The notes under the pieces are model-generated. The model made no database searches and was not told the DNA's origin. It saw nothing but the letters and a program-made list of their open reading frames with translations. Below, in pieces: positions 2,159 through 17,859 of a stretch of 64,000 bases of DNA. The stretch is from Ignavibacteriales bacterium (GTDB lineage: Bacteria > Bacteroidota > Ignavibacteria > UBA10030 > SZUA-254), in assembly GCA_016214905.1 (NCBI GenBank), contig JACRMQ010000007.1, forward strand, positions 1,067,695 through 1,131,694. The letters run 5' to 3'. How positions within the stretch are numbered: position 1 is the first letter of the stretch; every line of letters starts with the position of its first letter. The position numbers were made by a program, and so were the translations under genes.

Positions 2159-2218
2159 ATGGGGACAAAGAGATTGATTTCCATTTAATTCCGAACAATT
2201 CCCCTGAATATTCTTTTG

Positions 2219-2266: not shown

Positions 2267-2299
2267 TCTTCGATATTCCTGCAATCGAAAGGAGTAAAC

Positions 2300-3301
2300 A
2301 TGTCGTGCATTTTCCGAGAAAAAAAGAGCGGAATATATTACATCGTTTCTTCTAGTAATGGCAAAAGAATCTGGAAGTCCACCAAAACACGAGATAGAAA
2401 GAAAGCTCAGCAATTGTTTTCCAGTCACACTCCAATAAAAATAGAAACGAACCAACCCCAATTATTGTCACAATGCATAAAAGAGTATGTTTCTTTCGTA
2501 GAGACGACGTATGCCAGCAAAACATTAGAGATCTATAAAACCGCTCTAGATCATTTAATCACAAACACAGGAGATATTAGAGTCGATTCTATTACTTCCA
2601 GAAATATTGACCTTTATAAGGTTGTTCGCATGAAAGATGTCTCCCCGACCACTGTGAATATTGAACTCAGAGCTTTACGCACATTCTTCAATGTTCTAAA
2701 ACGATGGGAGATTGTTGACAAAAATCCTTGTCAAGGTATAAAGCAAATAAGGATACCGGAACAGACCCCTTTATTTTTCAATGAAGAGCAACAAATGGAT
2801 CTGATCAAGGCGATCTCAGAACGATGGCTTCAAGAGATCGTAATCTTTGCACTAATGACTGGGGCAAGGCGAGGTGAAATAATAAACCTCCAATGGAGTG
2901 ATATAAACTTTGAGACTAAAACAATCACAATACAAAGTAGCTTGAGTTATCAGGTGAAGACGGGAAAGCTGAGGACTATACCAATGAATGAGACCGTCTA
3001 CACTCTCCTCAAGGATAAGCCAGTAAAGGAAGGATTAGTATTCAAGGGGAAAAAAGGCAAGAAAGCTAATGATAATTTCGTAAGCGAGAAATTTCGGGAA
3101 TTTGTCAGGAAGAATGGTTTTGACAAGCGACTTCATTTTCATTCGCTTCGACATTCTTTTGCGAGCGTGTTAGTAAAGAAAGGAGTATCATTGTTTCAAG
3201 TCCAAAGATTACTAGGTCACTCCTCCTCGAAAATCACGGAGGTCTATGCGCACTTACAAAGCTCTGATATGCATCAAGTTGTTGATGTCTTGAAATTATG
3301 A
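2300..3301 (+). CDS. Tyrosine recombinase / integrase of the element
   Basis: A 333-residue site-specific recombinase that would integrate and excise the element. ATG 2300 is chosen because AAAGGAG lies 7 bases upstream; a longer reading from 2216 would only translate the 12-bp repeats. An N-terminal arm-binding-like domain (about 1-45), a SAM-like core-binding domain (about 52-145) and a catalytic domain (about 155-325) follow in order. Catalytic residues are visible: R190 in TGARRGE, a lysine near 220-223, H281xxR284, H307 in LLGH and the nucleophile Y316 in EVYAHL. The set is complete, so it is likely active. Its position beside the left attachment repeat supports its role. Confidence 0.95.
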   Translation: MSCIFREKKSGIYYIVSSSNGKRIWKSTKTRDRKKAQQLFSSHTPIKIETNQPQLLSQCIKEYVSFVETTYASKTLEIYKTALDHLITNTGDIRVDSITSRNIDLYKVVRMKDVSPTTVNIELRALRTFFNVLKRWEIVDKNPCQGIKQIRIPEQTPLFFNEEQQMDLIKAISERWLQEIVIFALMTGARRGEIINLQWSDINFETKTITIQSSLSYQVKTGKLRTIPMNETVYTLLKDKPVKEGLVFKGKKGKKANDNFVSEKFREFVRKNGFDKRLHFHSLRHSFASVLVKKGVSLFQVQRLLGHSSSKITEVYAHLQSSDMHQVVDVLKL

Positions 3302-3499: not shown

Positions 3500-4360
3500 T
3501 CATTCAAATCTAATAATAAATGGGTAGTCATAAATTTTTTCTATTCCATTATCAAGTTTATCAAATATTCTCATTATAAATGGCCCATTTGTTCGGAAGA
3601 TAGTACTCGATAAATTTATTTTCAGAAAAACCATTTCATTTGGTTTTTGTCCTGATGGGATAATGACATCGCTTAGCAAAGTCGTTTTCCCCGAATCTCC
3701 ATCCAGCCGGTATGAATAGTTATTCGATGATGCTGAATCATAAGGAATCGAAATTATAAAATCTATAGCAGTGTCTTTGGCCGATATGGTATATTCGGCA
3801 TACTGATCTTCATCTCCTCTATTCACTGATAAATATGATATTCTGATTTCACCAGTTCCTGTGGATGTTTTCATTAGGGAAGGTAAATAAAGAATACCAA
3901 CTGTAATTATAATCAACGAAGCACTCACATATACCAACCTCATTGGCTTTTGCCAGAGAGATTTGAACAATTCACCAGAATGTTCAAAGAATTCGGTCGC
4001 ACTATTTTCTAAAATCGAAATCATTTTTCTCACGAAACCATCTTTTGGATAATACTTTTTTAGGATTATTGCTTCATCCCTGCAAATATCACAAGTGGCT
4101 AAATGGTTTTCAATTCTTTTCCACTGATTACTATCTTCACTTAATTCACCATTAATATATAAGGCGATTTCATCTGTTGATGCGTGCTCTTTGTGCTTAT
4201 TGTGAAGGATTGCAGCCGATTTCACTTTTCTCCAAAATGAAATTTCTTTCTTTAATTCTTCATTTAACCTGAGTTCTGCTTCAAACTCTTCTTTTTCTTC
4301 TTTACTTAATGTTCCTGCCAAATAGAAAGGAATAAGTTCAAATATCTCTTCTGTCTTCAT
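3500..4360 (-). CDS. Membrane anti-sigma factor with zinc-finger motif
   Basis: A 286-residue protein 58 bp downstream of the ECF sigma gene, surely its cognate anti-sigma factor. Residues 1-50 resemble the first helices of RskA-type anti-sigma factors (IPFYLAGTLSKEEK). Residues 56-110 hold a second anti-sigma-like module with the zinc-binding H86xxxC90xxC93. One membrane segment lies at 142-161 and a beta-rich C-terminal domain of about 120 residues would face the periplasm. The arrangement fits regulated release: a periplasmic event changes the C-terminal domain and frees sigma in the cytoplasm. The double cytoplasmic module is unusual. The periplasmic domain matches nothing I recognise. 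Confidence 0.85.
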   Translation of the reverse strand: MKTEEIFELIPFYLAGTLSKEEKEEFEAELRLNEELKKEISFWRKVKSAAILHNKHKEHASTDEIALYINGELSEDSNQWKRIENHLATCDICRDEAIILKKYYPKDGFVRKMISILENSATEFFEHSGELFKSLWQKPMRLVYVSASLIIITVGILYLPSLMKTSTGTGEIRISYLSVNRGDEDQYAEYTISAKDTAIDFIISIPYDSASSNNYSYRLDGDSGKTTLLSDVIIPSGQKPNEMVFLKINLSSTIFRTNGPFIMRIFDKLDNGIEKIYDYPFIIRFE

Positions 4361-4418: not shown

Positions 4419-5057
4419 TTAAATGGTTACATCAAAAACTTCTTTAATTCTTTCTTTTATCTTACTTCTTTTTCGTGAAATAGTGGTTTTGACGTTAGGA
4501 ATGCTCATTCCCATTTTTATAGCGATTTCTTCTCTCGGTAATTTGTCGATGAGGGCATAATTAAGTAATTCCTGATCTTGTTGACTGAATTCGCGCATAA
4601 CCTGCTCGATCATTAATACGTTTTCGCGCAACTCAAGCTCTTCGTGCGGATTCAAGGATTCTTTGTCTTGAAATATTGCAGATGATCTATTTTGAGAATC
4701 ATCATCATTCTCGCTATGCTCATCGTAATAAACGTCATTATAATGTTTCAAATATGAAATTTCTGATTTCCGCACGTCAAGCATTTTTTTAAGTGTTACG
4801 CCCCACACAAATGTTTCTAAACTCGATTCACCCCGGAATGTTTTTGAAATACATAAGGTCTTCCATAGTGCTTCCGATACAAGCGGTTCGACTATTTTTT
4901 TTATTGATTCAGTCGCGAGAAGGTTGACTTGCTTCAATTTATACGAATAAAAATTGAAACCTTCTTGAATCCATCCCACAACTTTTTTGTATGTTGTTGA
5001 TGGTCCCTTTCGATCCAGGTATGCACAGAATTCGTTTATCAGTTCTATATCTCGCAT
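4419..5057 (-). CDS. ECF-type RNA polymerase sigma factor
   Basis: About 212 residues with region 2 (SEALWKTLCISKTFRGESS and the following helix ending DVRK) and a C-terminal region 4 helix-turn-helix (LPREEIAIKMGMS then NVKTTISRKR). An acidic linker joins them. ATG 5057 is taken as start; a TTG at 5072 would add five residues and neither has a clear ribosome-binding site. It is followed by its anti-sigma gene and is divergent from the CHAT lipoprotein. Eight copies of a strict ECF-type promoter occur downstream in the same element, none upstream of this gene, so I infer it directs that regulon without controlling its own expression. Confidence 0.9.
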   Translation of the reverse strand: MRDIELINEFCAYLDRKGPSTTYKKVVGWIQEGFNFYSYKLKQVNLLATESIKKIVEPLVSEALWKTLCISKTFRGESSLETFVWGVTLKKMLDVRKSEISYLKHYNDVYYDEHSENDDDSQNRSSAIFQDKESLNPHEELELRENVLMIEQVMREFSQQDQELLNYALIDKLPREEIAIKMGMSIPNVKTTISRKRSKIKERIKEVFDVTI

Positions 5058-5096
5058 AGTGATATTTAGCAATTGTCATTGTTTATTTCGACCACT

Positions 5097-5276: not shown

Positions 5277-7895
5277 ATGAACTATACTTATGACAAAATA
5301 ATTAAGCCGTTCTACCATTTTGGATTGTTATGTTTCATAACAATCCTCCTGCAAAGTTGCAAGAATGATACTACTCTAAAATTAAGGTACGAAGCAATCC
5401 GACTTGATTCATTAGCACAAATTGAAGATTCATTAAGCAATTACCTTTCTGCAAAAAACTATTACAATTCTGCTTTGTCTATATATTTGAAAGTTGGCGA
5501 TAGAACAAATAGCGCTGATATTTATTCAAATTTAGGATTTGTATATGCAAACTTAAATCAATTTGATTCTTCGAGAATATTTCACCACAAATCTCTCGAA
5601 ACGCAAAAAATTCTTCATGACACATTATCAATGGCAGCATCCTATAACAATCTTGGCTACATTTATCAACAAATGAATCAATATGCTTTATCAAATTCTT
5701 ATCTTGATTCATCACTTTACTTATTGAATATCCTTCATGACGATTCTAATTTTGTTAATCCTCTGACTACTAAAGGTTTAAATTTCTCTTTTCTAGGGCA
5801 ATACGATAAAGCGTTGGAGATTCATTCAAACGCTTTGTATCTCTGGGGAAAATATAAAGACTCCTCAATATTAGCAGGAGTTTTAATGAATATAGGTTAT
5901 GATTATTATAATCTGAAAGATTACAGCAATGCCTTGAATTCACTTGCGAGAGCATTGAATATCTCACGCATATTGGAATATGATGCATATATCGGATACG
6001 CGCAAGGATTGATTTCTCTGGTCCTGAATGCTCAGCAAAAATATTCAGATGCGGCAAAATATGCTGATTCAGCTCTTTCTATTTCTTTACGTCTCGGGCA
6101 GAAGCAAGATGAGGGTGCCGCATATTATAAACTTGGAATGATATTTTTGAATTCCGGGTATCCTGAAAAAGCAATCGACAATCTTAATAAAGCAGCGTTT
6201 ATTTTTCGTAAGCTCGGAACACCGGAACGGGAAGGCATGGTCTATTATCAAATGATGCGTGCCTTCATCAAATCTCGCAAACCTTCAACGGCAATCATAT
6301 ATGGAAAGAGTGCTGTCAATATTCTCCAATTAATTAGAGCCAGCATTAAATCTCTTGATAAAGACCTGCAGCATGATTATCTCAGATCGAAAGAAAATGT
6401 CTACCGGGAACTTGCTGAGTTGTTGATAAAACAAAGTCGTTATCCCGAAGCGCAGCAAATAATGAATATGCTAAAAGAGGAAGAGTATTTTGAGTATATT
6501 CGCGGTGAAGCTCAGGATACTATATCACTTAACTTGCAAGCAGTTTTTTCTCAATTGGAAAATAATCAATCAGAGAATATTAATAATATATTAGATAGTC
6601 TAGCTTCCTATAGCTTGGAGTTTTATCAGCTTCGTACCAAATCTTTGCTAAATGATGAACAAAATAAAAGATATTATCTTTTGCTTGACAGGATTAGACG
6701 CTCAAATGAGAAATACAATATGTTTCTCGATGAATTGGAAGATAAATTATCCTCTTCTCCTGAGCAAATGCCCAAAATAAAAGATCTCAGAGAAACCGAA
6801 AACCTGGTTGAAGTCCTCAGAAAATTAGGACCCCGCACCGTTGCAATCTATACGATAATGGAAGAGTCAAAACTCAATTTAATTCTAATGACAGGTGAAG
6901 TAAATAAATGGAAAGGAGTCTCTGTCAGTTCAAACCTCCTTAATAAAGATATAGATTTATTTATATCTCAACTCCGCGATCCCAAACAAGATCCGGTTCC
7001 AATGGCGAAAAAGATGTACGATCTGATTATCAGACCATTTGAAGCAGATCTCAAACGGATGAATGCAGACGAAATTCTCTGGTCACTTGATGGTAAATTA
7101 CGTTATGTTCCTATCTCCGCTCTCCATAATGGAAAAAATTTTATGGTTGATCTATATCGGAATATCATTATCATCCCAAGAAATATTGGGTGGCTTCTCG
7201 ATAAAGAGCATAAACAATGGGAAATACTTGGATTTGGAGTCTCGAAACCCCACGGTGAATTCCGCTCGCTACCATCTGTGTATGATGAACTTGCCGGGAT
7301 AGTAAAGGGCAAACATAATTCGACCGGAAACGGATTTATCCCCGGATATGTGAAACTTGATGAGAAATTCACGCTTAATACAATGCTGAGCGACCTAAGA
7401 AATCCTGCACCGATAGTCCATGTTGCAAGTCATTTCAAACTTGCACCCGGTGATTTCACAAATTCATTTTTATTGCTCGGAGACGGTTCAATTCTGACGA
7501 TGCAAGAATTTAAGAATCTACCCAAAGTATTCTCAGGTGTCGATCTCTTCACTCTCTCTGCGTGCAATACTGCCATGGGAACTTCTGCAAACGGTGGGGA
7601 GGTTGAAAACTTTGCCACACTCGCGCAACGTCAGGGAGCAAAAGTTATCTTGGCTACTTTATGGCCCGTGCAGGATAATAGCACAGCCGAATTGATGAAA
7701 CATTTTTATCGATTCAAATATGAAAATAATAAACTATCTATAGCAGAAGCTTTACAAAATGCTCAGCTATTCTTACTTAATGGCAATATTGCAAAATCAG
7801 AAAATCAATCCCAAAGCTCAGCAAATTCACTCCATCAGAAATACTCCCATCCATACTATTGGGCTCCGTTTATACTTATCGGGAATAGTCAATAG
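5277..7895 (+). CDS. CHAT-domain cysteine protease with TPR repeats, lipoprotein
   Basis: 872 residues. The N-terminus is a lipoprotein signal ending at the lipobox LLQSC (C28), so the mature protein is membrane-anchored outside the cytoplasm. Residues about 35-345 form tetratricopeptide repeats (motifs such as NLGFVYANLNQFD and NLGYIYQQMNQY), followed by a helical linker to about 510. The C-terminal CHAT domain (about 520-870) has an apparently intact caspase-like dyad, H719 in VASHF and C763 in LSACNTA, and a typical end (ATLWPVQDNSTAELM, then HPYYWAPF). It is divergent from the sigma/anti-sigma pair. I infer the TPRs sense a partner and the protease acts on the anti-sigma periplasmic domain or another envelope protein; the substrate is unknown. 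Confidence 0.92.
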   Translation: MNYTYDKIIKPFYHFGLLCFITILLQSCKNDTTLKLRYEAIRLDSLAQIEDSLSNYLSAKNYYNSALSIYLKVGDRTNSADIYSNLGFVYANLNQFDSSRIFHHKSLETQKILHDTLSMAASYNNLGYIYQQMNQYALSNSYLDSSLYLLNILHDDSNFVNPLTTKGLNFSFLGQYDKALEIHSNALYLWGKYKDSSILAGVLMNIGYDYYNLKDYSNALNSLARALNISRILEYDAYIGYAQGLISLVLNAQQKYSDAAKYADSALSISLRLGQKQDEGAAYYKLGMIFLNSGYPEKAIDNLNKAAFIFRKLGTPEREGMVYYQMMRAFIKSRKPSTAIIYGKSAVNILQLIRASIKSLDKDLQHDYLRSKENVYRELAELLIKQSRYPEAQQIMNMLKEEEYFEYIRGEAQDTISLNLQAVFSQLENNQSENINNILDSLASYSLEFYQLRTKSLLNDEQNKRYYLLLDRIRRSNEKYNMFLDELEDKLSSSPEQMPKIKDLRETENLVEVLRKLGPRTVAIYTIMEESKLNLILMTGEVNKWKGVSVSSNLLNKDIDLFISQLRDPKQDPVPMAKKMYDLIIRPFEADLKRMNADEILWSLDGKLRYVPISALHNGKNFMVDLYRNIIIIPRNIGWLLDKEHKQWEILGFGVSKPHGEFRSLPSVYDELAGIVKGKHNSTGNGFIPGYVKLDEKFTLNTMLSDLRNPAPIVHVASHFKLAPGDFTNSFLLLGDGSILTMQEFKNLPKVFSGVDLFTLSACNTAMGTSANGGEVENFATLAQRQGAKVILATLWPVQDNSTAELMKHFYRFKYENNKLSIAEALQNAQLFLLNGNIAKSENQSQSSANSLHQKYSHPYYWAPFILIGNSQ

Positions 7896-8005: not shown

Positions 8006-8034
8006 TGTAACCTTTTATTGAAAGAAGCAACTAT
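8006..8034 (+). promoter_or_regulatory. ECF-type promoter, copy 1
   Basis: TGTAACC at 8006-8012 and ACTAT at 8030-8034 separated by exactly 17 bp, with TTTT directly after the -35 element. It drives the lipoprotein gene at 8077, probably with 8545. One of eight copies with identical spacing in the element. Confidence 0.75.
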
Positions 8035-8076
8035 TGATTGTAATTCATAAATATTCAAAATTATAAGGAATAAAGT

Positions 8077-8469
8077 ATGAAAGCAATCTTAAAATCTTCT
8101 TGTTCAAAAAGATTGAATCTCAATCACCCAGTGTGGATGTTTTGGATTTGCCTCTCGATAGTTATTAGCTCGGTGTTGCTTACTTCATGTGAAAAAGGTG
8201 TTGATTCTGGGGAATCTGCATGCGAGAAAGATAATACCGGATGCATTGAGGTTAGGAATATTTCCTCATTATATAAATTTGATGTTTGGCTGGATGGATC
8301 AAAAATATTTACCGTTAAACCCGGGCAGTCATCAAATAAGAGCACTGGTGTTGGTTCTCATGTCGTGTCGATTAAGTATTTCAATACAACGCGGGATGCA
8401 TATAGCCCTTCGTATGTGAATGTATCTCAATGTCAGACCTGGTATCTAACATGCACACCTGTACAGTGA
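8077..8469 (+). CDS. Small lipoprotein of the ECF regulon, unknown function
   Basis: 130 residues beginning with a long lipoprotein signal ending in the lipobox LTSC near residue 38. Start supported by AAGGAA 8 bases before ATG 8077. The mature part of about 90 residues has four further cysteines (SACEKDNTGC, then SQCQTWYLTC), which could form disulfides, and an immunoglobulin- or PEGA-like beta pattern (FDVWLDGSKIFTVKPGQS). I recognise no family. ECF promoter copy 1 lies 43 bp upstream. The next lipoprotein follows after 75 bp without its own copy of the promoter, so the two are probably co-transcribed. Confidence 0.75.
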   Translation: MKAILKSSCSKRLNLNHPVWMFWICLSIVISSVLLTSCEKGVDSGESACEKDNTGCIEVRNISSLYKFDVWLDGSKIFTVKPGQSSNKSTGVGSHVVSIKYFNTTRDAYSPSYVNVSQCQTWYLTCTPVQ

Positions 8470-8544
8470 GATCATAGTAATGAATATACATATTAAACAA
8501 AATTTTAAATTAAACTCATTTTATTAATTCGAAAGGAATTTATA

Positions 8545-8910
8545 ATGTCTAAAATATCTGTTATATCGATTGTTGTGTTCTCTGCTATAGTACTTGCAGG
8601 ATGTTCTCATAAGTGGAAAGCCGAAATTTCGTCGAACACAAGTTGGCACGGTCAATTTGGAACAGGTTCAAAGAACAGTGGCAGTTCGAGGACGGTTGAT
8701 GGATCCGGAAACCAAACAATTAATGTTAGTGACGATGTAAAAGCCTGGTGTTTTGTCCAAAAACAAACATCAGGAGGATACCTAAAGGTGCGATTGAAAG
8801 ATGAAGGTGGTGGGTTGTTCGGAATAGCCGCAGGTGAAACAAGGGAAGCCGAAACAAATAGCCCATACGGTTCAGTTACGCTTGAATCGGATGCCGGTAC
8901 CGGCAATTAA
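8545..8910 (+). CDS. Small lipoprotein, glycine/serine-rich, unknown function
   Basis: 121 residues with a clean lipoprotein signal (lipobox LAGC, C20) and AAAGGAA before ATG 8545. The mature protein has a short beta-sandwich-like pattern with many Gly, Ser, Thr and Asn residues (SSNTSWHGQFGTGS, TINVSDDVKAW, LKVRLKDEGGG). I do not recognise a family. It follows the 8077 lipoprotein without an ECF promoter of its own and is closed by a hairpin terminator at 8934, so the two form one transcription unit. Probably exposed on an envelope surface. Confidence 0.7.
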   Translation: MSKISVISIVVFSAIVLAGCSHKWKAEISSNTSWHGQFGTGSKNSGSSRTVDGSGNQTINVSDDVKAWCFVQKQTSGGYLKVRLKDEGGGLFGIAAGETREAETNSPYGSVTLESDAGTGN

Positions 8911-8933
8911 GAAAAATTGTTCAATAAATACCG

Positions 8934-8972
8934 AATGCCTGAGACAAATAATCCCAGGCATTTCTATTTGTC
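8934..8972 (+). terminator. Rho-independent terminator after the lipoprotein pair
   Basis: Perfect 8-bp stem (AATGCCTG at 8934-8941 with CAGGCATT at 8955-8962), 13-base loop, then a modest T-rich tail. Confidence 0.6.
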
Positions 8973-8992
8973 AAGCAGCATGTCGTATCCTA

Positions 8993-9021
8993 TGTAACCT
9001 TTTATTCTCCGAGGCGACCAT
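8993..9021 (+). promoter_or_regulatory. ECF-type promoter, copy 2
   Basis: TGTAACC at 8993-8999, exactly 17 bp, ACCAT at 9017-9021 (one change from ACTAT), with TTTT after the -35 element. It drives the PKD lipoprotein at 9125. Confidence 0.7.
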
Positions 9022-9124
9022 TAAAGGAACATAATTCAATTATTTTATCTTCTTACACTTCTTGAATATGCTTTGGAGAAATATGCAGGAAGTAAATCTA
9101 AAAATCTCCAAGAAGGATACCATT

Positions 9125-9787
9125 ATGTTAAAACATTTGTCTTTTAAGATAGTTGATGCTAAACGCACTTTCGCATTAATTTTTCAATTCACAATTATCA
9201 TCGCTATAGCAGTTATTGCGCTGAGTGGATGCAAAAAAAACAATCCATCAGAACCGACCGTCGGTTCAAAACAATCTCCCCCTGTTGCTGCTTTTGTTGC
9301 AAATCTGACATCGACGTATACTGGAGGAGCTATTAGATTCGAGGATCGCTCTACTGGTGAACCGACAGCTTGGGAGTGGTCATTCGGAGATGGTTCAACC
9401 TCGAATGAACAAAACCCGATACATGTATATTCAAAAACTGGTGCTTATACGGTTTCTTTGAATGTAAGTAACACTGGTGGGAGCAATGTGGTGACAAAGT
9501 TAAATTACATCAATATAGTTCAAATGTATGTTCAAGTTCGTCACGCATCAGCTTTGACAGGCAGTGTCTCAGTGTCTGTCAAAGGAGTAACTTACGAAAT
9601 ACAAAAAAACGGATATTGCCAAATTCCAGTGTCAAGTGGAGTAGATCTTACTATCTGGGAATGTATTTGGGTAAGCAACGCTTGGTCGTGTCGATGGGAT
9701 GGTCCATACCATGTTTTTCCAAGTAGGAGGTATAGGGTTATTGATGCATCATCTGTTCGTTGGGATTTAACACTTGCATCGGACTAA
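9125..9787 (+). CDS. PKD-domain lipoprotein of the ECF regulon
   Basis: 220 residues from ATG 9125, chosen over upstream ATGs because AAGGAT stands before it and the signal peptide then has normal length (lipobox LSGC near residue 35). Residues about 48-130 are a PKD domain with the hallmark WEWSFGDGS and the strand pattern HVYSKTGAYTVSL. The last 90 residues are a small beta domain rich in Trp and Cys (WECIWVSNAWSCRWDG) that I do not recognise. PKD domains are common in surface proteins and mediate protein or sugar contacts. ECF promoter copy 2 is about 100 bp upstream and a strong terminator follows. Confidence 0.8.
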   Translation: MLKHLSFKIVDAKRTFALIFQFTIIIAIAVIALSGCKKNNPSEPTVGSKQSPPVAAFVANLTSTYTGGAIRFEDRSTGEPTAWEWSFGDGSTSNEQNPIHVYSKTGAYTVSLNVSNTGGSNVVTKLNYINIVQMYVQVRHASALTGSVSVSVKGVTYEIQKNGYCQIPVSSGVDLTIWECIWVSNAWSCRWDGPYHVFPSRRYRVIDASSVRWDLTLASD

Positions 9788-9825
9788 TGCCTACCTAAAT
9801 TATCGACTCTTAAAATACTATTTAG

Positions 9826-9852
9826 AAGCCCTCTGCTACGAGGGCTTTTTTG
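9826..9852 (+). terminator. Rho-independent terminator after the PKD lipoprotein
   Basis: Perfect 8-bp stem (AAGCCCTC with GAGGGCTT), 6-base loop, then a T-run. The -35 element of the next ECF promoter begins 5 bases later. Confidence 0.85.
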
Positions 9853-9856
9853 TTTC

Positions 9857-9885
9857 TGTAACCTTTTCCTACACCAAAAGACTAT
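9857..9885 (+). promoter_or_regulatory. ECF-type promoter, copy 3
   Basis: TGTAACC at 9857-9863, exactly 17 bp, ACTAT at 9881-9885, with TTTT following the -35. It precedes the 1567-residue secreted protein, leaving a leader of about 95 bases. Confidence 0.75.
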
Positions 9886-9988
9886 TAAATGAAACTAATA
9901 ATTCATCTAATTCTAAAATTCAAATACCACGGATGAGCAGCGATGACAATTCTGTTGGTAGCATCAATTCATCGCAGAGGATAATTAT

Positions 9989-12900
9989 ATGTATAGATTT
10001 AAATCATTTAAAATGAAATGTATACAAAGCAAAATGTTCAGCATTTTGGTGTTGGTAATTTTGTTTAATGCAATTTTTTTAACCGATGGATTTTGTCAAA
10101 CAACTAATCAAATTCCTTGCACGGGGGAATACCGTTGGCTTAATGTTTATCCGGATGGACCGGTTAGCTGGGGAGAGGACCAATTAGAAGTACAAGGTAT
10201 AACTCACGATGATGCAAACTGGTATATTACCGCTACGGATCGTTCGGGGATGATTGATCAAGATATTGATAATTGCTATTTATGGAAAATTCCTGTGACT
10301 GAGGATCTAAACGAAAATGTTTTTACAAATCCCAATGTTACATCAGTAAATTTATATCAACTTTCTCCTTTGTGGAATGGCAATGATCCGTTGAGTGGTT
10401 ATATCCATTGGGGAGATTTGGATCATTATCAATATGATGGTGTCGATTATCTGACTGTTCCAGTTACGAGTCCCAGTAAACCATCTCCGGCAATTATTAT
10501 ATTTCGTGCATCTAGTTTGACAATAGCTGGTATAGTGGTTCTTCCTGGTGAACCAGGTAAATCCCAGAAGGATATTGGTTGGTGTGCAGTCAATCCTAAT
10601 TCGGGTGATCTTTATACTTCCAATGACAGCACGAGTATTGTGTTTCGTTATCAAATATCGTGGGGAAGGCTCAGGTCAACAGGATACCAGGCAACCCTAC
10701 CTGTTTATTGGAAAGCAACATATCAATTAACTGATGGTATTTCAAATTCAGATTCTCTACTTGATATGCATAATATGCAGGGTGGAGAATTCACACCAAG
10801 CGGTGACTTTCTCTATCTCAGTAATGGACGTGGAAGTTGCAAGGGTCAGGGGGCATCTGATGCCGGTCATCCTAATGATGGAATTAACATTTTTGACACA
10901 GGTAATTGGGATACTAAAAGTTTTCGAAGGATCAAACATTCCGTCAATCGTTGCTATGAATCGCCTGGTGTATCCGATTGTGGTCATCCATGGACCGATT
11001 GTTTTGATCTAACATACGATTTTGGTTGTGGGGCATTCGAGTCTCATTCGGATCAGCCACAAGGTCTCACGATATGGGATATCGATAAAAAAGGAGCACC
11101 CAATATGTTTGGACAGCTACATGTCCTTGTTGCCAGTATAGGTCTTGGTGGTAATATGGCACAGTTACATCATTACAATTTTCCACTTTGCTTATCCAAT
11201 ACTATTGCTCCTTCAATATCACGTCAGCCTAGTGATGTGTCTGCCATCAAAGGAACGCCTGCAACTTTCAGTATTTCTGCCTCGGGAAGTCGAATCCGAT
11301 TCCAATGGCAAAAAGACGGTGTCAGTATATTTGGTGCAAATGAACCAACATATACTATAAAGTCTGTATGGGATTCAGACAATGGTACTACCTTCCGCTG
11401 TATTGTCTCAAACTGTACGGGAAGTGTTGTGAGTAATAGTGCCGTGTGCACTGTTCTCTTCCCGCCATCAATAACACTTCAACCCAAACGTGCGATTACA
11501 GTCCCTGCTGGTCAACCGGTCACATTCTATATCTCAGCATCCGGTGATCCGATACTGACATATCAATGGCAAAAAAATTGTGTAGATATTCCAGATGCAA
11601 CCAGTCCGAGTTTCACCACACCGATGTCAGCAGTCTCCGATAGCGGCACTCGATACAGATGTATAGTAAAGAATCCGTATGGCACTGCGATTAGTAGCGA
11701 GTGTATACTGCGCGTAATTCCTCGAATCCCATCGACGAATCTAATTTTCAATTCAGGTTTTGAATCTGGAATTACTGATTGGTTTACTGCCGGCGATGTT
11801 CTTTTTGCATCCGCTGGGTATGAACAGGATAGCTCACTCTGCATTCCATTTAAACCGAATCAAACCAGATCATTATATCAGGAAAGTTTCGGTCTTGATC
11901 CATCGACTCAATACCGATTACGAGTAGCCGGGAAATCGTCGACAAATATTGACACGGTTCGAATTAAGATAATAAAAGATTCATCCCCATGGACGCTGTA
12001 TTGTGATTCAATCACTATCGCAGTAACTCCAGAATGGCAATGTATTGATACGGTTCTTATGTCTAAGAATTTTAGTGGCATGATTGACAATAGCCGACTG
12101 ATGATCGACTTTGGCGGTAATTCTCATGATCACTCGAAAATCGGTGATAGTCTATACTTCGATAATATCGAATTCACCCGCGTTGTTGATGGAACACCTT
12201 CCATCACTGTGCAACCGCAGGATCAATATATCATCGATGGATCATGGGCAACATTTTCCATCACTGCTACCTCTGCAACTCCGATGACCTATCAATGGTT
12301 GAAAAATGGATTCCCGATTGAGGGTGGTAACGGTTCGAGTGTGACACTCCCTCGTGCAGTTTTCGCCGATAGCGGTGCTCGCATTCGGTGCATCGTACGG
12401 AATGCAAGGGGTAGCACTTCAAGTAAAACGGTTATGATGCATGTGATTTCAGCGAATCTAATTCAAAATTCTGATTTCCAATTCGGTAAAATGCATTGGT
12501 TCCTCAGTGATACAGTCAATGGTGCATTTGATATTCACAATTTCGATCAAAATTTTGCCGCTGCTGTGAACGTTGTCCAAACAGGTAAGGATGTGCGATT
12601 ATTCCAAAATAGATTCGGTTTGGGACCGGTTACGAAATTTCGGGTACGATTTCACGCAATGGCAGCTCATGAACGGGATACAGTTCAATTCTTTGTATCT
12701 TCTGAAAGTTCACCGAATGTTAAATATTCCGTTCCTTTCACCGTTATTCCGTTACGGAATGTTTGGCAACAATTTGATACAATCCTTACGACTACGAATC
12801 TTTTGAAAACTGTGGGCGATGCATGTATTAACTTTGCGTTCAAATTCGCATCTCACAGCACTGTGTATCTGGACGATGTCCGATGGGAGGTAATTGATAA

Positions 12901-14692
12901 GAGAATTCCATTTGTAACGCTACAACCGACAGATCAAAAGATATTTGAAGGGATGTCTGTTGCATTCGCTGCGAATGTTGTTGGGGTTCCGCCTATATCA
13001 TATCAGTGGCTGAGAAATGACACCCCGATCACTGGTGAAACATCACCAAACCTCACTATGAACGCGCTCGATATTTCGGAGTCAGGAGCAAAATATCGCT
13101 GCATTTTGTCCAATCAGTACGGAAAAACCTCCACACGGTCTACTGCTTTAACAATAGTTGGAAACTTAGTGATTAATTCCGGATTTGAACAGGGGAAGAT
13201 CGGGTGGAACAGCAGCGATTCGACGAAACTACTATTTTCCATGAGAGGTCCGGGATATCTGGGAAAATATGCAGTACAAATTGATGTCAACGATCCTTCA
13301 ACCAAACCGACTTTTTATCAAAGTGGGATCCAGATCGAAAGCTATATGGCATACAACATCAGTTACTATGCGAGATCAGAAAAGGAATATGATACACTCG
13401 TGACATTCATTACAAGTGATACATCCTCACATGCAACATTCGTAGCTCCGATAAGATTCTACCTCGGAAAAGAATGGCGTAAGTATGATACAATCATCGT
13501 AACGAAGGATTGTTCTAATATGGTGACTGGTGCTATGCTTAATTTCTTAATACCGGGAAGCTCACATCGCAGAATTTATCTCGATGAGGTAACATTGAAA
13601 CGTATAACAGGCGGAACTGCTCCGATCATTACGCGCAATCCTGTTGACCGAACAGTCACCGCAGGTGATCCTGCTACGTTCTCTATTCAGGTGATCGGTG
13701 AGGCACCACTCACGTATCACTGGCAGAAGAATGGCGTGGATATTCCGGGTGCAACTTCTCCAAGATATTCAATCCAATCCGCATCACGGAGCGATAGCGG
13801 CTCTATGTACAGGTGCTTGATTGTTAACGACTATGGAATGGTAGCAAGTGAACAGGCAAAACTCGCTGTTATTACTTCAGGAAGGATGAATGGCATTCAG
13901 GTTGTTGCGATTCAAGCCGGATGGAACATGGTCTCGGTTCCATTAACGGTTCCTGATTCCAGAAAATCAGAAATCTTCCCGATGGCAATGGGAGATGCGT
14001 ATGGTTTTAATCAAATGTACGAAGTGTGTGATACGCTTCTGGCAGGGCGGGGATACTGGATTAAGTTCCCAACAACTCAGTCAATTACCATCTCGGGTTC
14101 TGTCCGCACATCCGATACTATATCAGTATCGAATGGGTGGAATCTAATCGGCTGCCCAAGCGATCCGGTTCGTGTCGAATCGATTCAATCGGAACCGGTT
14201 GGTCTTCTCACATCACAATTTTATAATTACAATGGGGAATATGTTGCTGCATCGACATTAGAACCCGGCAAAGGATATTGGGTCAAAATGATACAGCCGG
14301 GGAAACTGATTCTCAATAGTGCTTCACTCGATTCCAAAGCAATGATCAAAATATCGTCATCAGGTGAGGTTCCTCCACCTTCACCGGATGGATCGTTAGA
14401 ACAGGACAACAAAGATGCTGGAATACCAAGTAAGTACGAGCTATCCCAGAATTATCCTAATCCTTTCAATCCGGTGACGACCATTAAGTATCAGTTACCG
14501 CAGGATGTTTTTGTCAGTCTGAAAGTATACAACATCCTTGGTGAGGAGGTTACAACTCTGGTATCCGGTGAGCAAACGGCAGGATACAAGTCGGTAGAGT
14601 TTGATGGCAGTATGCTTTCAACCGGAACATATATATACATGTTGAAAGCAGGAAATTATACCAACATTAAAAAATTGCTACTCCTAAAATAA
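9989..14692 (+). CDS. Large multidomain secreted protein: Ig-like and CBM-like repeats, type IX sorting signal
   Basis: 1567 residues; AGAGGA precedes ATG 9989 and a signal peptide ends near FCQ. Residues about 35-400 form a Cys-containing beta-propeller-like domain. Five immunoglobulin-like domains follow (about 406, 491, 733, 972 and 1210), each with a QWQK/QWLK/HWQK core and a D(S)G...YRC strand. Three carbohydrate-binding-like jelly-roll domains alternate with them (about 584, 823 and 1057; openings such as LIFNSGFESGITDW). A paired GWN...GYW module lies near 1310-1440 and a type IX sorting domain with NYPNPFNP near 1487. It is exported and probably surface-bound, perhaps for adhesion or polysaccharide binding. 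ECF promoter copy 3 puts it in the sigma regulon. Confidence 0.88.
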   Translation: MYRFKSFKMKCIQSKMFSILVLVILFNAIFLTDGFCQTTNQIPCTGEYRWLNVYPDGPVSWGEDQLEVQGITHDDANWYITATDRSGMIDQDIDNCYLWKIPVTEDLNENVFTNPNVTSVNLYQLSPLWNGNDPLSGYIHWGDLDHYQYDGVDYLTVPVTSPSKPSPAIIIFRASSLTIAGIVVLPGEPGKSQKDIGWCAVNPNSGDLYTSNDSTSIVFRYQISWGRLRSTGYQATLPVYWKATYQLTDGISNSDSLLDMHNMQGGEFTPSGDFLYLSNGRGSCKGQGASDAGHPNDGINIFDTGNWDTKSFRRIKHSVNRCYESPGVSDCGHPWTDCFDLTYDFGCGAFESHSDQPQGLTIWDIDKKGAPNMFGQLHVLVASIGLGGNMAQLHHYNFPLCLSNTIAPSISRQPSDVSAIKGTPATFSISASGSRIRFQWQKDGVSIFGANEPTYTIKSVWDSDNGTTFRCIVSNCTGSVVSNSAVCTVLFPPSITLQPKRAITVPAGQPVTFYISASGDPILTYQWQKNCVDIPDATSPSFTTPMSAVSDSGTRYRCIVKNPYGTAISSECILRVIPRIPSTNLIFNSGFESGITDWFTAGDVLFASAGYEQDSSLCIPFKPNQTRSLYQESFGLDPSTQYRLRVAGKSSTNIDTVRIKIIKDSSPWTLYCDSITIAVTPEWQCIDTVLMSKNFSGMIDNSRLMIDFGGNSHDHSKIGDSLYFDNIEFTRVVDGTPSITVQPQDQYIIDGSWATFSITATSATPMTYQWLKNGFPIEGGNGSSVTLPRAVFADSGARIRCIVRNARGSTSSKTVMMHVISANLIQNSDFQFGKMHWFLSDTVNGAFDIHNFDQNFAAAVNVVQTGKDVRLFQNRFGLGPVTKFRVRFHAMAAHERDTVQFFVSSESSPNVKYSVPFTVIPLRNVWQQFDTILTTTNLLKTVGDACINFAFKFASHSTVYLDDVRWEVIDKRIPFVTLQPTDQKIFEGMSVAFAANVVGVPPISYQWLRNDTPITGETSPNLTMNALDISESGAKYRCILSNQYGKTSTRSTALTIVGNLVINSGFEQGKIGWNSSDSTKLLFSMRGPGYLGKYAVQIDVNDPSTKPTFYQSGIQIESYMAYNISYYARSEKEYDTLVTFITSDTSSHATFVAPIRFYLGKEWRKYDTIIVTKDCSNMVTGAMLNFLIPGSSHRRIYLDEVTLKRITGGTAPIITRNPVDRTVTAGDPATFSIQVIGEAPLTYHWQKNGVDIPGATSPRYSIQSASRSDSGSMYRCLIVNDYGMVASEQAKLAVITSGRMNGIQVVAIQAGWNMVSVPLTVPDSRKSEIFPMAMGDAYGFNQMYEVCDTLLAGRGYWIKFPTTQSITISGSVRTSDTISVSNGWNLIGCPSDPVRVESIQSEPVGLLTSQFYNYNGEYVAASTLEPGKGYWVKMIQPGKLILNSASLDSKAMIKISSSGEVPPPSPDGSLEQDNKDAGIPSKYELSQNYPNPFNPVTTIKYQLPQDVFVSLKVYNILGEEVTTLVSGEQTAGYKSVEFDGSMLSTGTYIYMLKAGNYTNIKKLLLLK

Positions 14693-14712
14693 ACTGAAAT
14701 AATTATACTTCG

Positions 14713-14748
14713 AAGCCCGGTCAAAGAGGGGATGATCGGGCTTTTTTG
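14713..14748 (+). terminator. Rho-independent terminator after the Ig-repeat protein
   Basis: AAGCCCG at 14713-14719 pairs with CGGGCTT at 14737-14743, followed by a T-run. Confidence 0.8.
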
Positions 14749-14775
14749 TTATGACTCTCAATATGTTAAAACGTA

Positions 14776-14804
14776 TGTAACCTTTTTAATATCCATCCGA
14801 CTAT
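14776..14804 (+). promoter_or_regulatory. ECF-type promoter, copy 4 (before a short non-coding interval)
   Basis: TGTAACC at 14776-14782, exactly 17 bp, ACTAT at 14800-14804, with CG before ACTAT. No gene follows before a terminator at 14845, so it appears to drive a short RNA. Confidence 0.72.
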
Positions 14805-14810
14805 CCAATA

Positions 14811-14869
14811 ACCTTAAGTAATTAGTTATTCGTGGATTAGTGAAAGCCCTCTTATTGAGGGCTTTTTTG
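14811..14869 (+). ncRNA. Candidate ECF-driven small RNA of about 58 nt
   Basis: The interval between ECF promoter copy 4 and a perfect terminator hairpin has no open frame of any size. A predicted transcript would run from about 14811 to about 14868, with an AT-rich 5' part and the terminator hairpin as its 3' end. A second ECF promoter then serves the next gene separately. Alternative: a gene once stood here and only its promoter and terminator remain. Confidence 0.4.
14845..14869 (+). terminator. Rho-independent terminator of the small RNA candidate
   Basis: AGCCCTC at 14845-14851 pairs with GAGGGCT at 14857-14863 around a 5-base loop, followed by a T-run. Confidence 0.8.
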
Positions 14870-14903
14870 TTCTCTAATACCTCCATAGAGTACGATTCTA
14901 TAC

Positions 14904-14932
14904 TGTAACCTTTTCCTTCTGTATGAGACTAT
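14904..14932 (+). promoter_or_regulatory. ECF-type promoter, copy 5
   Basis: TGTAACC at 14904-14910, exactly 17 bp, ACTAT at 14928-14932, TTTT after the -35. It serves the zinc-ribbon membrane protein at 14978. Confidence 0.75.
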
Positions 14933-14977
14933 ACTGTAACAATAATTAACCCATACTCTCAAAGAAAGGTGACTCCG

Positions 14978-15337
14978 ATGCAAGTTCAAGATCAAATCTT
15001 CGAAAATAATTCAATCAGCGAAGAACGCGAATACGAATGCTCCGATTGCGGAACATCAGTGCTTGAAAATGATAATGTATGCCCGCAATGTGGAGCAAGT
15101 TTAGAAGAGACAATATCTTTAGATGGAATTAACCATGATGAACGAAATAATAATCTTCAGCCTGAAGCAACTACAATTGATGGCTATGAAATCGGGGTTG
15201 GATTTCTGTGGCTCATTGGTGGAATCATCGTTACCGTGGTTACCTACAATATTGCCGCACCCGGCGGAAGCTATATTATTGCACTGGGTCCAATATTACA
15301 CGGTGCTTTAAAGGTAATTAAGGGCTTATTCAGCTGA
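14978..15337 (+). CDS. Zinc-ribbon membrane protein of the ECF regulon
   Basis: 119 residues from ATG 14978; AAGAAAGG lies 8 bases upstream, so it is preferred to a GTG nine bases earlier. Residues about 20-42 are a zinc ribbon with two CxxC pairs (CSDCG and CPQCG). After an acidic linker come two hydrophobic segments (about 73-90 and 96-112), so the ribbon probably lies in the cytoplasm and the C-terminus in the inner membrane. Such small ribbon-plus-membrane proteins are widespread and mostly uncharacterised. It has its own ECF promoter 40-70 bp upstream. Function unknown. Confidence 0.75.
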   Translation: MQVQDQIFENNSISEEREYECSDCGTSVLENDNVCPQCGASLEETISLDGINHDERNNNLQPEATTIDGYEIGVGFLWLIGGIIVTVVTYNIAAPGGSYIIALGPILHGALKVIKGLFS

Positions 15338-15358
15338 TCTGAACACAACCGCACTACC

Positions 15359-15387
15359 TGTAACCTTTTCCTCAAACCATAGACTAT
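15359..15387 (+). promoter_or_regulatory. ECF-type promoter, copy 6
   Basis: TGTAACC at 15359-15365, exactly 17 bp, ACTAT at 15383-15387, TTTT after the -35. It serves the first acyltransferase at 15430. Confidence 0.75.
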
Positions 15388-15429
15388 CTACTTAGAAAAC
15401 ATTATTTAATCAACCGAAAAAGAACCAAT

Positions 15430-16224
15430 ATGCAAAAGACATACTACGAATTCCGACAACTCGAATCAACCAACGAATTAAAACAGTTCCTTTTGCTACG
15501 CTACAGTATTTATCGCGAGAGCCGATTGGCAATGTTTTCTCCCGAAAACGATTTAGGCATTGACCTTGATTGCTACGATGTTAATTCCGTTCACTTCGGT
15601 CTCTTTGAGCATTCCGACGGTATCTCGCGACCTGTTGGCTACATACGCATGATTACAGATCAACGCGGACCTTTTGCCAATGAGATAATAAGTATCGCAA
15701 GCGAATCACAGGAATTGTACAGGAAAGTAACAGATACACCAGCCGAGCCATTCCCGATCATTTCATACTGCCCTGATGGTCAGGTTATAAAAGAATTTTG
15801 TGAAAAGGTTCAATCGAGCGGAAAAAAAGTTGTTGAGGCAAGCCGATTTTCGTTAGATAAATCCATCAGGGGACATAAAATGGCAGATCATTTTCTCACG
15901 GCAATATCCGCCTCGTTTATTGTCCACGATGTCGAGTTTTCGTTAATGACTTGCCATCTGCTTCATAAAAGTTTCTATTCTGGTTTTGGATTCCGGCAGG
16001 TTGAAGGCACTGTAGATTACTACACAGAACTTTATAACTATCGCTTTTTTTGCCTTACTGGTTCAGCGGAATACTTACCGGATGCGGTGAAGGATAGAGT
16101 GCTTCAAATGGCAGAAGCATACGATACAACGGGTCGGATATGTTACTACCCCAATAATCCCGAACAGTTTTACGCGCCGCTCGATAGTTTTATTGAGAGC
16201 CGCCCGATATTCATGGCTGCATAG
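15430..16224 (+). CDS. LuxI-like / FeeM-like N-acyltransferase, copy 1
   Basis: 264 residues, cytoplasmic. The motif order is that of autoinducer synthases and related N-acyltransferases: R24YxxY28 with ESR, an acidic D45xDxYD50 segment, RPVGYIRMITD (67-77) and VEASRF (135-140), matching the ExSR motif of LuxI. These enzymes move an acyl chain from acyl-ACP or acyl-CoA to an amine such as homoserine lactone or an amino acid. The protein is longer than LuxI (about 190-220), closer to FeeM and the PEP-CTERM-associated acyltransferases. A paralogue follows directly. ECF promoter copy 6 is upstream. The product is unknown: signal molecule or acyl-amino-acid lipid. Confidence 0.78.
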   Translation: MQKTYYEFRQLESTNELKQFLLLRYSIYRESRLAMFSPENDLGIDLDCYDVNSVHFGLFEHSDGISRPVGYIRMITDQRGPFANEIISIASESQELYRKVTDTPAEPFPIISYCPDGQVIKEFCEKVQSSGKKVVEASRFSLDKSIRGHKMADHFLTAISASFIVHDVEFSLMTCHLLHKSFYSGFGFRQVEGTVDYYTELYNYRFFCLTGSAEYLPDAVKDRVLQMAEAYDTTGRICYYPNNPEQFYAPLDSFIESRPIFMAA

Positions 16225-16231
16225 TTAGCCG

Positions 16232-16260
16232 TGTAACCTTTCTTCAGCCCGGTCGACAAT
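16232..16260 (+). promoter_or_regulatory. ECF-type promoter, copy 7
   Basis: TGTAACC at 16232-16238, exactly 17 bp, ACAAT at 16256-16260 (one change), with CG before it. It serves the second acyltransferase at 16301. Confidence 0.7.
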
Positions 16261-16300
16261 TATATAGAAATTAACTAAAGAAACTATAAGGAATCATAAA

Positions 16301-17140
16301 ATGCAAAACAAATACTACATCTTCCGAGAACCTAATAACTTCGACGAACTGAAGGCATTACTTCTTCTACGTTACCGCGTATTCCGCGAAAGCCGATTGG
16401 AAAAATTTGTTTCAGAGAATGAGGCTGGTATTGATCTTGATTGCTACGATCTTTACTCACACCACTTTGGATTGTACGAGCATGACGGCGACCGTTCCCG
16501 ACCTGTTGGTTATATCCGTATGGTGACAGATCAGCCGGGAACATTTCGTGATGAGTTGTTTGATCATGCCAAATCGATTCCTTCTATCTATGAGAAAGTA
16601 AATCGAATACCGAAGGAACCATTTCCAGTAATGAACTATTGCCCGTATCGTAACGACATTCGAGAATACTATGCTAACATGAAGCTACAAGGGGAAAAAC
16701 TTGTAGAAGCAGGAAGATTGTCATTAGACAATTCTGTTCGAGGGTTGAAAATTGCAACGAACTTTATCGCATTAATATTTGCATCATTCCTTGTTCATAA
16801 TGTTGACAAGACTATCTTGGCATGTCGTCCAAATCATAAAAATATTTACAATTTATTTGGAGCGATCGTTTTTGACAGCACGATTGAATTTCAATGTGAT
16901 GAAGCTGATAGCAGTGCACTTCTTCTTCTTGCAGCAATGAATTTGCCGGATTCGGTGAAAGAAAAAGTTTACAAGATGGCGGAAGTTTACAAAAAGTTCG
17001 GTCGTATATGTTACAATCCGTCCGAGCCGGAGAATTATTTACCTCCGCTCGGTGCATACATGAAGAGCAAGCCGGTGTTTGCACCAGCCGTAGAGTCCGT
17101 TCCCCTGAACGGACCAAAAACCCAAACCGTAGCCGCGTAA
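16301..17140 (+). CDS. LuxI-like / FeeM-like N-acyltransferase, copy 2
   Basis: 279 residues, clearly a tandem duplicate of the preceding gene. It shares RYRVFRESRL, GIDLDCYD, RPVGYIRMVTD, VEAGRLSLDNSVRG and the end motif GRICYNPSEPE. The LuxI-type ExSR element is E-A-G-R here. The middle region (about 80-130) and the last 20 residues differ most, so the two may differ in acyl or amine preference. AAGGAA precedes ATG 16301. It has its own ECF promoter rather than relying on read-through, so the copies could be tuned separately. No LuxR-type receptor is encoded in the window. Confidence 0.78.
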   Translation: MQNKYYIFREPNNFDELKALLLLRYRVFRESRLEKFVSENEAGIDLDCYDLYSHHFGLYEHDGDRSRPVGYIRMVTDQPGTFRDELFDHAKSIPSIYEKVNRIPKEPFPVMNYCPYRNDIREYYANMKLQGEKLVEAGRLSLDNSVRGLKIATNFIALIFASFLVHNVDKTILACRPNHKNIYNLFGAIVFDSTIEFQCDEADSSALLLLAAMNLPDSVKEKVYKMAEVYKKFGRICYNPSEPENYLPPLGAYMKSKPVFAPAVESVPLNGPKTQTVAA

Positions 17141-17164
17141 CCTTTTATGTATCAAGTCGACTAT
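17136..17164 (+). promoter_or_regulatory. ECF-type promoter, copy 8
   Basis: CGTAACC at 17136-17142 (first base differs), exactly 17 bp, ACTAT at 17160-17164, TTTT after the -35. The -35 overlaps the end of the second acyltransferase gene. It serves the methyltransferase at 17212. Confidence 0.7.
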
Positions 17165-17211
17165 TCTATGTAATCAATAATCAAACAATTTTAATTATAA
17201 AGGAACTCACA

Positions 17212-17859
17212 ATGTCAAAACTCTTAAAAACCCTCGCCGTCCTGATCTTTTTATATGTTATTCCGCTACTTGGAAACATACCACTTCTATATAATCTTCG
17301 TATTGTTCTCCTAATGTTTACCGGTATTCTCATGTTCATATCCCAGCCCGAGTTAAAAATAAGCGAAGCAAAGGAAAAGAAAAATACCGACCGCAATTCC
17401 GTTTTTGTTATACTCCTTGCAGGCGGTTTAAGTCAGATACTTGCAATCATCGAGTGGGCATACTTCAAACCAGCACCGGCAATAATTGCAAATAATTTTC
17501 TGGTCGTTGCGGGTGTGGTTATGGTTGTTGGCGGGATGGCATTCCGGATCTGGGCTATTGAAACACTCAAAATGTTTTTCACATCAACAGTTCAAATAGT
17601 AAAAGGGCATAAGGTTATTCAACACGGTCCGTATAAAGTAGTTCGTCATCCAAGTTATCTCGGCTCAATGGTTGCAATCATCGGTAGCGCGTTAGTTCTT
17701 GAAGCTCCCATTTCCGCCGTCTTCGCTCTCTGCTCAATGATCTATGCTTATACGGTACGCGTCCGGGTCGAAGAAATTACTCTCGTTGCTGAATTGGGCG
17801 ATGCCTACCGCGAATTTCAGAAGATAAGAAAATACAAAGTTATCCCGTTTGTCTGGTAA
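17212..17859 (+). CDS. Isoprenylcysteine carboxyl methyltransferase-like membrane protein
   Basis: 215 residues from ATG 17212, chosen because AAAGGAAC stands upstream and the promoter lies just before it; a longer frame back to 17008 would run through the previous gene. Four to five membrane segments are visible. The C-terminal half holds the ICMT/PEMT-type SAM-binding signature: GHKVIQHGPYKVVRHPSYLG, then a paired acidic motif (RVRVEE) and the closing GDAYREF...PFVW. Family members methylate carboxyl groups of lipidated cysteine or other hydrophobic acceptors; in bacteria substrates are mostly unknown. Its place after two N-acyltransferases suggests modification of their lipid-like product, which is inference. 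Confidence 0.82.
   Translation: MSKLLKTLAVLIFLYVIPLLGNIPLLYNLRIVLLMFTGILMFISQPELKISEAKEKKNTDRNSVFVILLAGGLSQILAIIEWAYFKPAPAIIANNFLVVAGVVMVVGGMAFRIWAIETLKMFFTSTVQIVKGHKVIQHGPYKVVRHPSYLGSMVAIIGSALVLEAPISAVFALCSMIYAYTVRVRVEEITLVAELGDAYREFQKIRKYKVIPFVW

Follow-up and report, generated by a model that had tools for sequence, protein, structure and literature searches.

A stretch of 64,000 nucleotides from an Ignavibacteriales bacterium (hereafter the window; positions C7:1067695-1131694 of G000, a 3.3-Mb genome in 10 contigs) carries a tRNA-targeting integrative element that encodes an extracytoplasmic function (ECF) sigma factor, a probable membrane anti-sigma factor and a TPR-CHAT caspase-like protein. 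It is very probable that these components account for a private regulon of nine promoters, in which the element's sigma factor serves its own anti-sigma factor and the cargo of the element, with the TPR-CHAT protein as the proposed trigger. The central part of this explanation, that the sigma factor encoded at 4419-5072 on the minus strand reads all nine promoters, is highly likely and is the part predicted with the greatest confidence. For a little-studied lineage, sequence alone allows a sigma factor to be predicted together with its promoter, the regulon and a probable trigger, and the outcome would be a mobile element with a closed regulatory circuit for its own cargo.

Eight of the promoters had been described in an earlier, sequence-only reading of the window, at 8006, 8993, 9857, 14776, 14904, 15359, 16232 and 17136. 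All eight are where that reading placed them, with exactly 17 bp separating [T/C]GTAACC from ACTAT, the second box being varied to ACCAT at 8993 and to ACAAT at 16232. The flanking letters also hold, since TTTT lies 3' of the -35 box in seven of the eight (16232 has TTTC) and a G stands directly 5' of ACTAT in seven (8006 has A). The count was nevertheless one short, as a ninth site, which is an exact match, lies on the minus strand at 4431-4403, where it runs over the 3' end of the sigma gene and stands 42 nt from the ATG of the anti-sigma gene; the interval given for the regulon, 8006-17164, excludes the sigma gene itself, and the anti-sigma, the CHAT gene and the conserved module described below do not figure in that reading. 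Copies of TGTAACC elsewhere in the window were said to lack the second box, and none has it within one mismatch, but they are more numerous than was stated: they occur on the plus strand at 46064 (not 46066), 47326, 53266, 60406 and 63741 and on the minus strand at 35644, 19058 and 14554, those at 47326 and 35644 keeping three of the five second-box letters.

A chance origin of the sites is rejected on the strength of shuffles, genome-wide counts, and spacing and leave-one-out scans. The window contains 18 matches at up to two mismatches, compared with a mean of 6.3 (standard deviation 2.6) after shuffling, and 18 was reached in none of 100 shuffles. When the second box is written AC[TCA][AT]T, a spacing of 17 gives nine matches in the element and zero outside it in the window; the same boxes at other spacings from 8 to 30 give one match at 10, one at 21 and two at 28 within the element, and one at 21 and one at 25 outside. 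In a leave-one-out scan of the whole window each of the nine sites falls within the top nine, the left-out sites scoring 21.8-30.8 and the best non-site position of the first run 11.6.

The regular recurrence of the sites between mostly single-gene units, all but one on one strand, would also suit a cassette array in which they serve for recombination or for protein binding. However, the spacer is fixed in length and free in its interior, the repeats are non-palindromic and they stand 40-103 nt 5' of start codons (from ACTAT to the chosen start codon, 40-47 nt for five protein-coding cargo units and 103 nt for two). The same form is found 5' of unrelated genes in other genomes, and no wider similarity around the sites is apparent by eye. 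A recombination-site identity is rejected on the fixed spacer, the lack of palindromy, the distance to start codons and the recurrence in other genomes, and the cassette-array explanation as a whole is left with a negligible probability.

Many copies across the genome had been named beforehand as the result that would overturn the regulon. The scan instead gave seven exact matches to YGTAACC-N17-ACTAT, all seven of them inside the element. A single mismatch raises the number to 31, two in the element and 29 outside; the reversed pattern, used as a control, matches 26 times in total, so the 29 are at about chance level. Long stop-to-stop frames (at least 120 aa) enclose 24 of these 29, although this test is crude, as the element's own sites at 15359 and 17136 are also counted as inside such frames because the frames extend upstream of the real starts. 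The five that lie outside long frames, the best being C9:93774, may be further targets and to that extent weigh against a regulon confined to the element. Among 98 genomes of the order, TGTAACCTTTT-N13-ACTAT at up to one mismatch finds nine sites in G000 (eight in the element), one in each of seven other genomes and none in the remaining 90, the reversed control giving 12 matches in all; in viral contigs, TGTAACCTTTT-N12-GACTAT has no exact match. The near-match at C9:93774 (L159, minus strand; TGTTACC...GACTAT) is the top-scoring chromosomal one outside the element; it falls outside long frames and directly 5' of an ATG frame, and the gene there is a possible host gene under the element's sigma factor.

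The sigma gene (probable start ATG 5057) matches TIGR02937 above the cut-off (E 1.7e-11) as well as PF08281, and TIGR02937 is matched at E <= 0.001 by all six sigma factors aligned from this and related loci. A six-row profile of these sigmas retrieves the ECF sigma factors 6jbq and 1or7 from the PDB at about 5e-10, with 1or7, 6jbq and 5wuq covered over both regions. By sequence, the product has sigma2 and sigma4 and no other domain, and is an ECF sigma factor. The adjoining anti-sigma gene (3500-4360, minus strand; PF13490, zf-HC2, E 3.9e-10) encodes a probable membrane anti-sigma, hydrophobic over residues 142-160 (best window) and continuing for 126 residues beyond. In an alignment of seven anti-sigmas the Hx3Cx2C motif (H86, C90, C93) is invariant and a hydrophobic segment is present in every row (best window only), which, with a predicted N-terminal cytoplasmic domain ahead of the transmembrane segment, places the family among the zinc-binding anti-sigma (ZAS) factors. 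Two further residues, Y176 and R181 (Tyr-x4-Arg), are invariant just past the membrane segment.

The pairing of this sigma factor with these promoters has its strongest support in other genomes. Twenty regions were fetched around strong CHAT hits of the order, mostly on longer contigs, and five of them (L103, L106, L108, L109 and L116) have an anti-sigma homologue with an adjoining ECF gene. The pair is divergent from the CHAT gene in the first four; in L116 it is farther off and on the same strand. Sigma and anti-sigma of these relatives are 20-26% identical to those of the window (21-26% for the five anti-sigmas measured). An anti-sigma profile, whose query contained five of the six relatives as rows, gave full-length matches in seven of the 98 genomes of the order, G055 being new, and partial ones in G456, G423 and contig C6 of G000; across 390 genomes of the phylum no full-length match was found beyond the order and partial matches occurred in five genomes.

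At these seven loci, a matrix built from the eight sites first described, which leaves out the junction site, detects one at every sigma/anti-sigma junction (p 0.0001-0.014 each, the weakest in G411). A junction-type site (p 0.01) accompanies only one of 19 control frames, taken from weaker sigma matches in the order that resemble other ECF genes. The junction promoter has the form TG[T/A]AAC-N16-CGACTAT, with variants, and its presence at all seven homologous loci supports the sequence-only proposal that one element-borne sigma factor probably controls the sites. A second site recurs on the far side of the CHAT gene, 26-39 nt 5' of a small downstream AraC-type gene in all five readable relatives (p 0.0003-0.0044); it lies about 0.12-0.93 kb past the CHAT end, and two of the AraC-type starts are chosen GTG codons. 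There are no sites around the start of the sigma gene (0/6 modules) or of the CHAT gene (0/6), the lowest p being 0.2.

The exact consensus TGWAAC-N16-CGACTAT was chosen after the module sites had been seen, such that its informative part is its rarity elsewhere. It has 10 matches in 36 genomes, six of them at modules (G251 1/1, G414 2/2, G247 1/1 and G000 2/3), and its reversed control has eight; of the non-module matches, three are in the 29 genomes without a full module and one is elsewhere in G000. G411, G442 and G055 have none under the strict form, their sites being variants. Across 20 chosen sites, G at position 2, A at 5 and C at 6 are invariant, as is the C in the -10 box; AAC is present in the -35 box of 19, and the -10 box opens with CG in 16, mostly as CGA rather than CGT, although these sites were picked by this motif.

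The same results bear on the reading in which the sites are ECF promoters read by a host chromosomal ECF sigma factor and borrowed by the element. Other ECF-like genes are indeed present in the order, and in G411, a genus-mate, a promoter of this type accompanies that genome's module, which would suit such borrowing. Against this, every exact genome match is element-borne, the second anti-sigma match in the genome is partial only, and the junction promoter accompanies every locus of this sigma/anti-sigma family as opposed to one in 19 other ECF-like genes. Reading by a host sigma factor is accordingly very unlikely, though not as remote as the cassette array.

Several observations nonetheless weigh against the regulon as proposed. 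The sigma-promoter pairing is one of association. Pfam finds only region 4 in the window's sigma factor, and its single-sequence fold is poor (pLDDT 48). No close relative of the sigma factor or of the pair of FeeM-like cargo proteins was found in the searches made: tblastn found no sigma relatives in the genome-contig and viral-contig scans, plasmids gave none, only one of 395 phylum genomes, G000 itself, has the sigma at E <= 1e-8, and PDB searches with the window sigma alone, or with the first FeeM-like protein alone, gave no match. Fifteen of the 20 fetched CHAT regions are without the module, some holding other ECF-like genes; a single genus supplies three of the seven loci, and the sigma of G055 is in frame for its last 83 residues only. 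In 222 kb of module-free CHAT regions there are 31 chance hits with a score of at least 9, the best reaching 15.5; comparable scores therefore arise by chance, and it is the fixed position that carries the argument. Partial anti-sigma homologues (G349, G456 and G000 C6; regions L147, L148 and L153) have no strong site in the right place. Finally, the -10 box here is CGACTAT, whereas PMC8103513 names CGT.

Some minor features of these loci may be added. The partial match in G000 (C6:273209-273574; L147 about 9833-10249, minus strand) is a solitary match to the outer domain of these anti-sigmas, with a small lipoprotein-like frame adjoining, and no sigma or CHAT gene was detected in the 19.5 kb fetched around it. 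Further frames stand between CHAT and the AraC-side site in G442 and G247, and extra frames separate CHAT from the AraC-type gene at 9721-10644 of L106 and 8190-9080 of L108. The extra frame of L106 carries MPNHIH, a sequence known from REP-associated transposases. L106 also has a second AraC-type gene, without a site, and in L103 (G251) a 21-base tandem repeat at 11122-11345 lies inside a small frame that follows the AraC-type gene. With the AraC-type proteins of two relatives as queries, the window itself gave chance-level matches only.

Sites at the junction and before AraC-type genes, and none before sigma or CHAT, indicate that the sigma factor most likely controls its inhibitor and its cargo and not itself. 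This arrangement can be set beside known ECF/ZAS (zf-HC2) systems, RpoE-RseA and SigW-RsiW among them. As in those systems, the sigma gene is adjacent to that of a transmembrane anti-sigma, AAC is found in the -35 box and the -10 box mostly opens with CG. The differences are the placing of the predicted promoter between the two genes, the -10 box CGACTAT and the inclusion in the unit of a TPR-CHAT gene whose product bears an export signal. A promoter in this position means that the inhibitor, rather than the sigma factor, would be autoregulated. Positive autoregulation of the sigma operon is described in PMC8103513 as a common but not required ECF trait; the six modules, with no sigma-start site in any, do not display it, and the conserved junction site thus departs from the usual design of ECF operons.

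What would release the sigma factor is less certain. The TPR-CHAT gene (5277-7895, plus strand; PF12770, E 1.2e-46) is divergent from the sigma gene, and by eye its product has a lipoprotein-type N-terminus. The CHAT positions of the alignment are occupied by His 719 and Cys 763, a pair that all six aligned proteins retain, so that the domain with its dyad qualifies as a CHAT protease of predicted activity. By eye, the CHAT N-termini in the modules are export-like. A CHAT gene lies within a few kb in all six readable neighbourhoods of the seven full-length anti-sigma homologues; in G055, the seventh, a contig end is close by and CHAT was not seen. CHAT genes as such are common, being present in 82 of the 98 genomes of the order, and among the six plasmid records, of 178 matching TPR-CHAT, none has a sigma or anti-sigma annotated within 4 kb, although PLSDB annotation is incomplete. 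PADLOC, run on 10 proteins, returned its generic TPR model only.

That the CHAT protein cleaves the anti-sigma is a tentative proposal, predicted from sequence and from analogy and judged somewhat less than evenly likely. It is put forward because of the linkage, the export-like N-termini, the intact His/Cys pair, an anti-sigma domain beyond the membrane bearing Y176/R181, and the precedent of Csx29, Csx30 and CASP-sigma in type III-E CRISPR systems. Against it, five of the relatives were found via CHAT, which biases the linkage count; our estimate for this step was lowered slightly for this reason. In the mechanism envisaged, the transmembrane zf-HC2 anti-sigma would at rest keep the sigma factor at the membrane. 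An envelope signal would lead the exported TPR-CHAT protein to cut the outer domain of the anti-sigma, for which Y176/R181 is a candidate cut or recognition site, and the freed sigma factor would then transcribe its own anti-sigma from the promoter at the 3' end of the sigma gene. Inhibitor made in this way would again hold the sigma factor that induced it, giving a negative feedback that is self-limiting and without self-amplification. The free sigma factor would at the same time drive eight cargo transcripts, one of them short and without a gene and the others encoding lipoproteins, adhesin-like proteins that are secreted, a zinc-ribbon protein, the FeeM-like pair and an ICMT-like protein.

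The same regulon could equally be set free in another way, by the usual site-1/site-2 protease cascade or by direct binding of a signal, with CHAT acting separately as an effector, for example a protease of the envelope or of cell death. Membrane anti-sigmas cut by DegS/RseP-type proteases are on record (PMC10028731), the CHAT gene has no promoter of this type, and the module is missing from most of the fetched CHAT regions. Weighing the other way are the presence of CHAT at every readable full-length anti-sigma locus (six of seven), though most were found via CHAT, the export-like N-termini with their conserved His/Cys pair, and the relief of a sigma inhibitor by TPR-CHAT in type III-E CRISPR (same source). 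Release independent of CHAT comes close to an even chance.

PMC10028731 describes the type III-E system (Craspase) as comprising the TPR-CHAT protein Csx29, the inhibitor Csx30 and CASP-sigma. As here, a TPR-CHAT protein, a sigma inhibitor and an ECF-type sigma factor are encoded together, with sigma sites within the locus itself. Unlike Craspase, the CHAT protein of the element is export-like and the inhibitor is a transmembrane zf-HC2 protein and not Csx30. The window's sigma factor matches NF041236 (CASP-sigma) weakly (E 3.1e-6, 27.3 bits against a cut-off of 100) and falls outside that family, and no Cas proteins were found among 19 window proteins scanned with Pfam, CRISPR arrays not having been searched for. 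ECF54 offers a second likeness: these ECF sigmas have CHAT, subtilase or carboxypeptidase neighbours, and proteolytic control without an anti-sigma is proposed for them in PMC8999054. The loci considered here likewise have an ECF sigma with CHAT nearby but add a conserved membrane anti-sigma, a comparison made with the ECF54 description only.

Taken together, the loci may represent a non-CRISPR unit in which an exported TPR-CHAT protein cuts the outer domain of a transmembrane ZAS anti-sigma, with Y176/R181 as a candidate cut or recognition site, and frees an ECF sigma to drive the inhibitor and the cargo, though never its own gene, as a periplasmic counterpart of Craspase; the element would have turned this unit into a private nine-promoter regulon, a promoter 5' of each cargo gene replacing the AraC-type target of the relatives. 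This full version is the most speculative and remains doubtful, whereas expansion of the element's regulon to nine promoters is most likely on the sequence evidence. The parts are of known kinds; what is new is their combination, the conserved promoter serving inhibitor and not sigma, and a private nine-promoter regulon carried by a mobile element. Searches of open PubMed Central papers, judged by titles, abstract openings and passages, turned up nothing on an exported CHAT protease paired with a membrane anti-sigma. If CHAT is the trigger, the sigma-release logic of type III-E CRISPR would exemplify a more general principle, one with an envelope version as well.

The element is delimited by 43-bp exact direct repeats at 2116-2158, corresponding to the 5' part of tRNA-Pro, and 27185-27227, which overlaps the intact tRNA-Pro (27188-27263); all are on the plus strand. 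The repeats enclose about 25 kb and a tyrosine integrase (2216-3301, plus strand; PF00589, E 5.1e-35), and it is on this combination of integrase and tRNA-derived repeats that the assignment as a tRNA-targeting integrative element is based. Four tandem CACCTAACAC repeats (2220-2265, plus strand) overlap the 5' end of the integrase frame, and repeats of this type recur at the right end (about 27102-27128), where 27116 carries an exact copy, preceded closely by one with a single change; lying near both ends, they are probably integrase arm sites. Rfam finds only tRNA over positions 1-28000.

All cargo genes and their promoters are on the plus strand. The promoter at 8006-8034 would serve a small lipoprotein gene (8077-8469) and probably the next (8545-8910), which has no upstream site of its own; both have lipobox-like N-termini by eye, and neither has a Pfam match over the cut-off. 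The next two promoters, at 8993-9021 and 9857-9885, precede respectively a PKD-domain lipoprotein (9125-9787, chosen start ATG 9125; PF18911, E 1.3e-16) and a protein of 1567 aa that combines Ig and CBM domains with a sorting tail of the secretion type (9989-14692; PF13927, PF02018 and PF18962). The promoter at 14776-14804 is followed by no protein gene but by a terminator-like hairpin (14808-14875 folds at -18.4 kcal/mol, z -3.1, mostly as a hairpin), and possibly yields a small RNA of about 60 nt or is a remnant. A small zinc-ribbon protein whose C-terminal half is hydrophobic (14978-15337; PF13240, E 2.8e-6) has its promoter at 14904-14932. Further along, the large secreted-protein genes at 18273 and 24223 have no convincing upstream site; a candidate tenth site at 18204 (TGAAACC...GACCCTAA), 5' of the gene for a 1975-aa secreted protein, is weak (p 0.057) and was rejected.

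The remaining three promoters fall within a compact group of genes (15430-17859), in which a FeeM-like pair is followed by an ICMT-like methyltransferase, each with a promoter of its own. The first FeeM-like N-acyltransferase (15430-16224, promoter 15359-15387) matches PF21926 and PF13444 above the cut-off; the second (16301-17140, promoter 16232-16260) is 46% identical to it. At E <= 1e-8 the first is found in one of 390 phylum genomes, G000, and tblastn of the pair found no relatives in the genome-contig and viral-contig scans. The last promoter (17136-17164) overlaps the stop of the second FeeM-like gene and precedes the ICMT-like carboxyl methyltransferase (17212-17859, chosen start ATG 17212; PF04140, E 4.3e-19). 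These three genes possibly constitute a route to a signal or lipid of the methylated N-acyl amino acid type.

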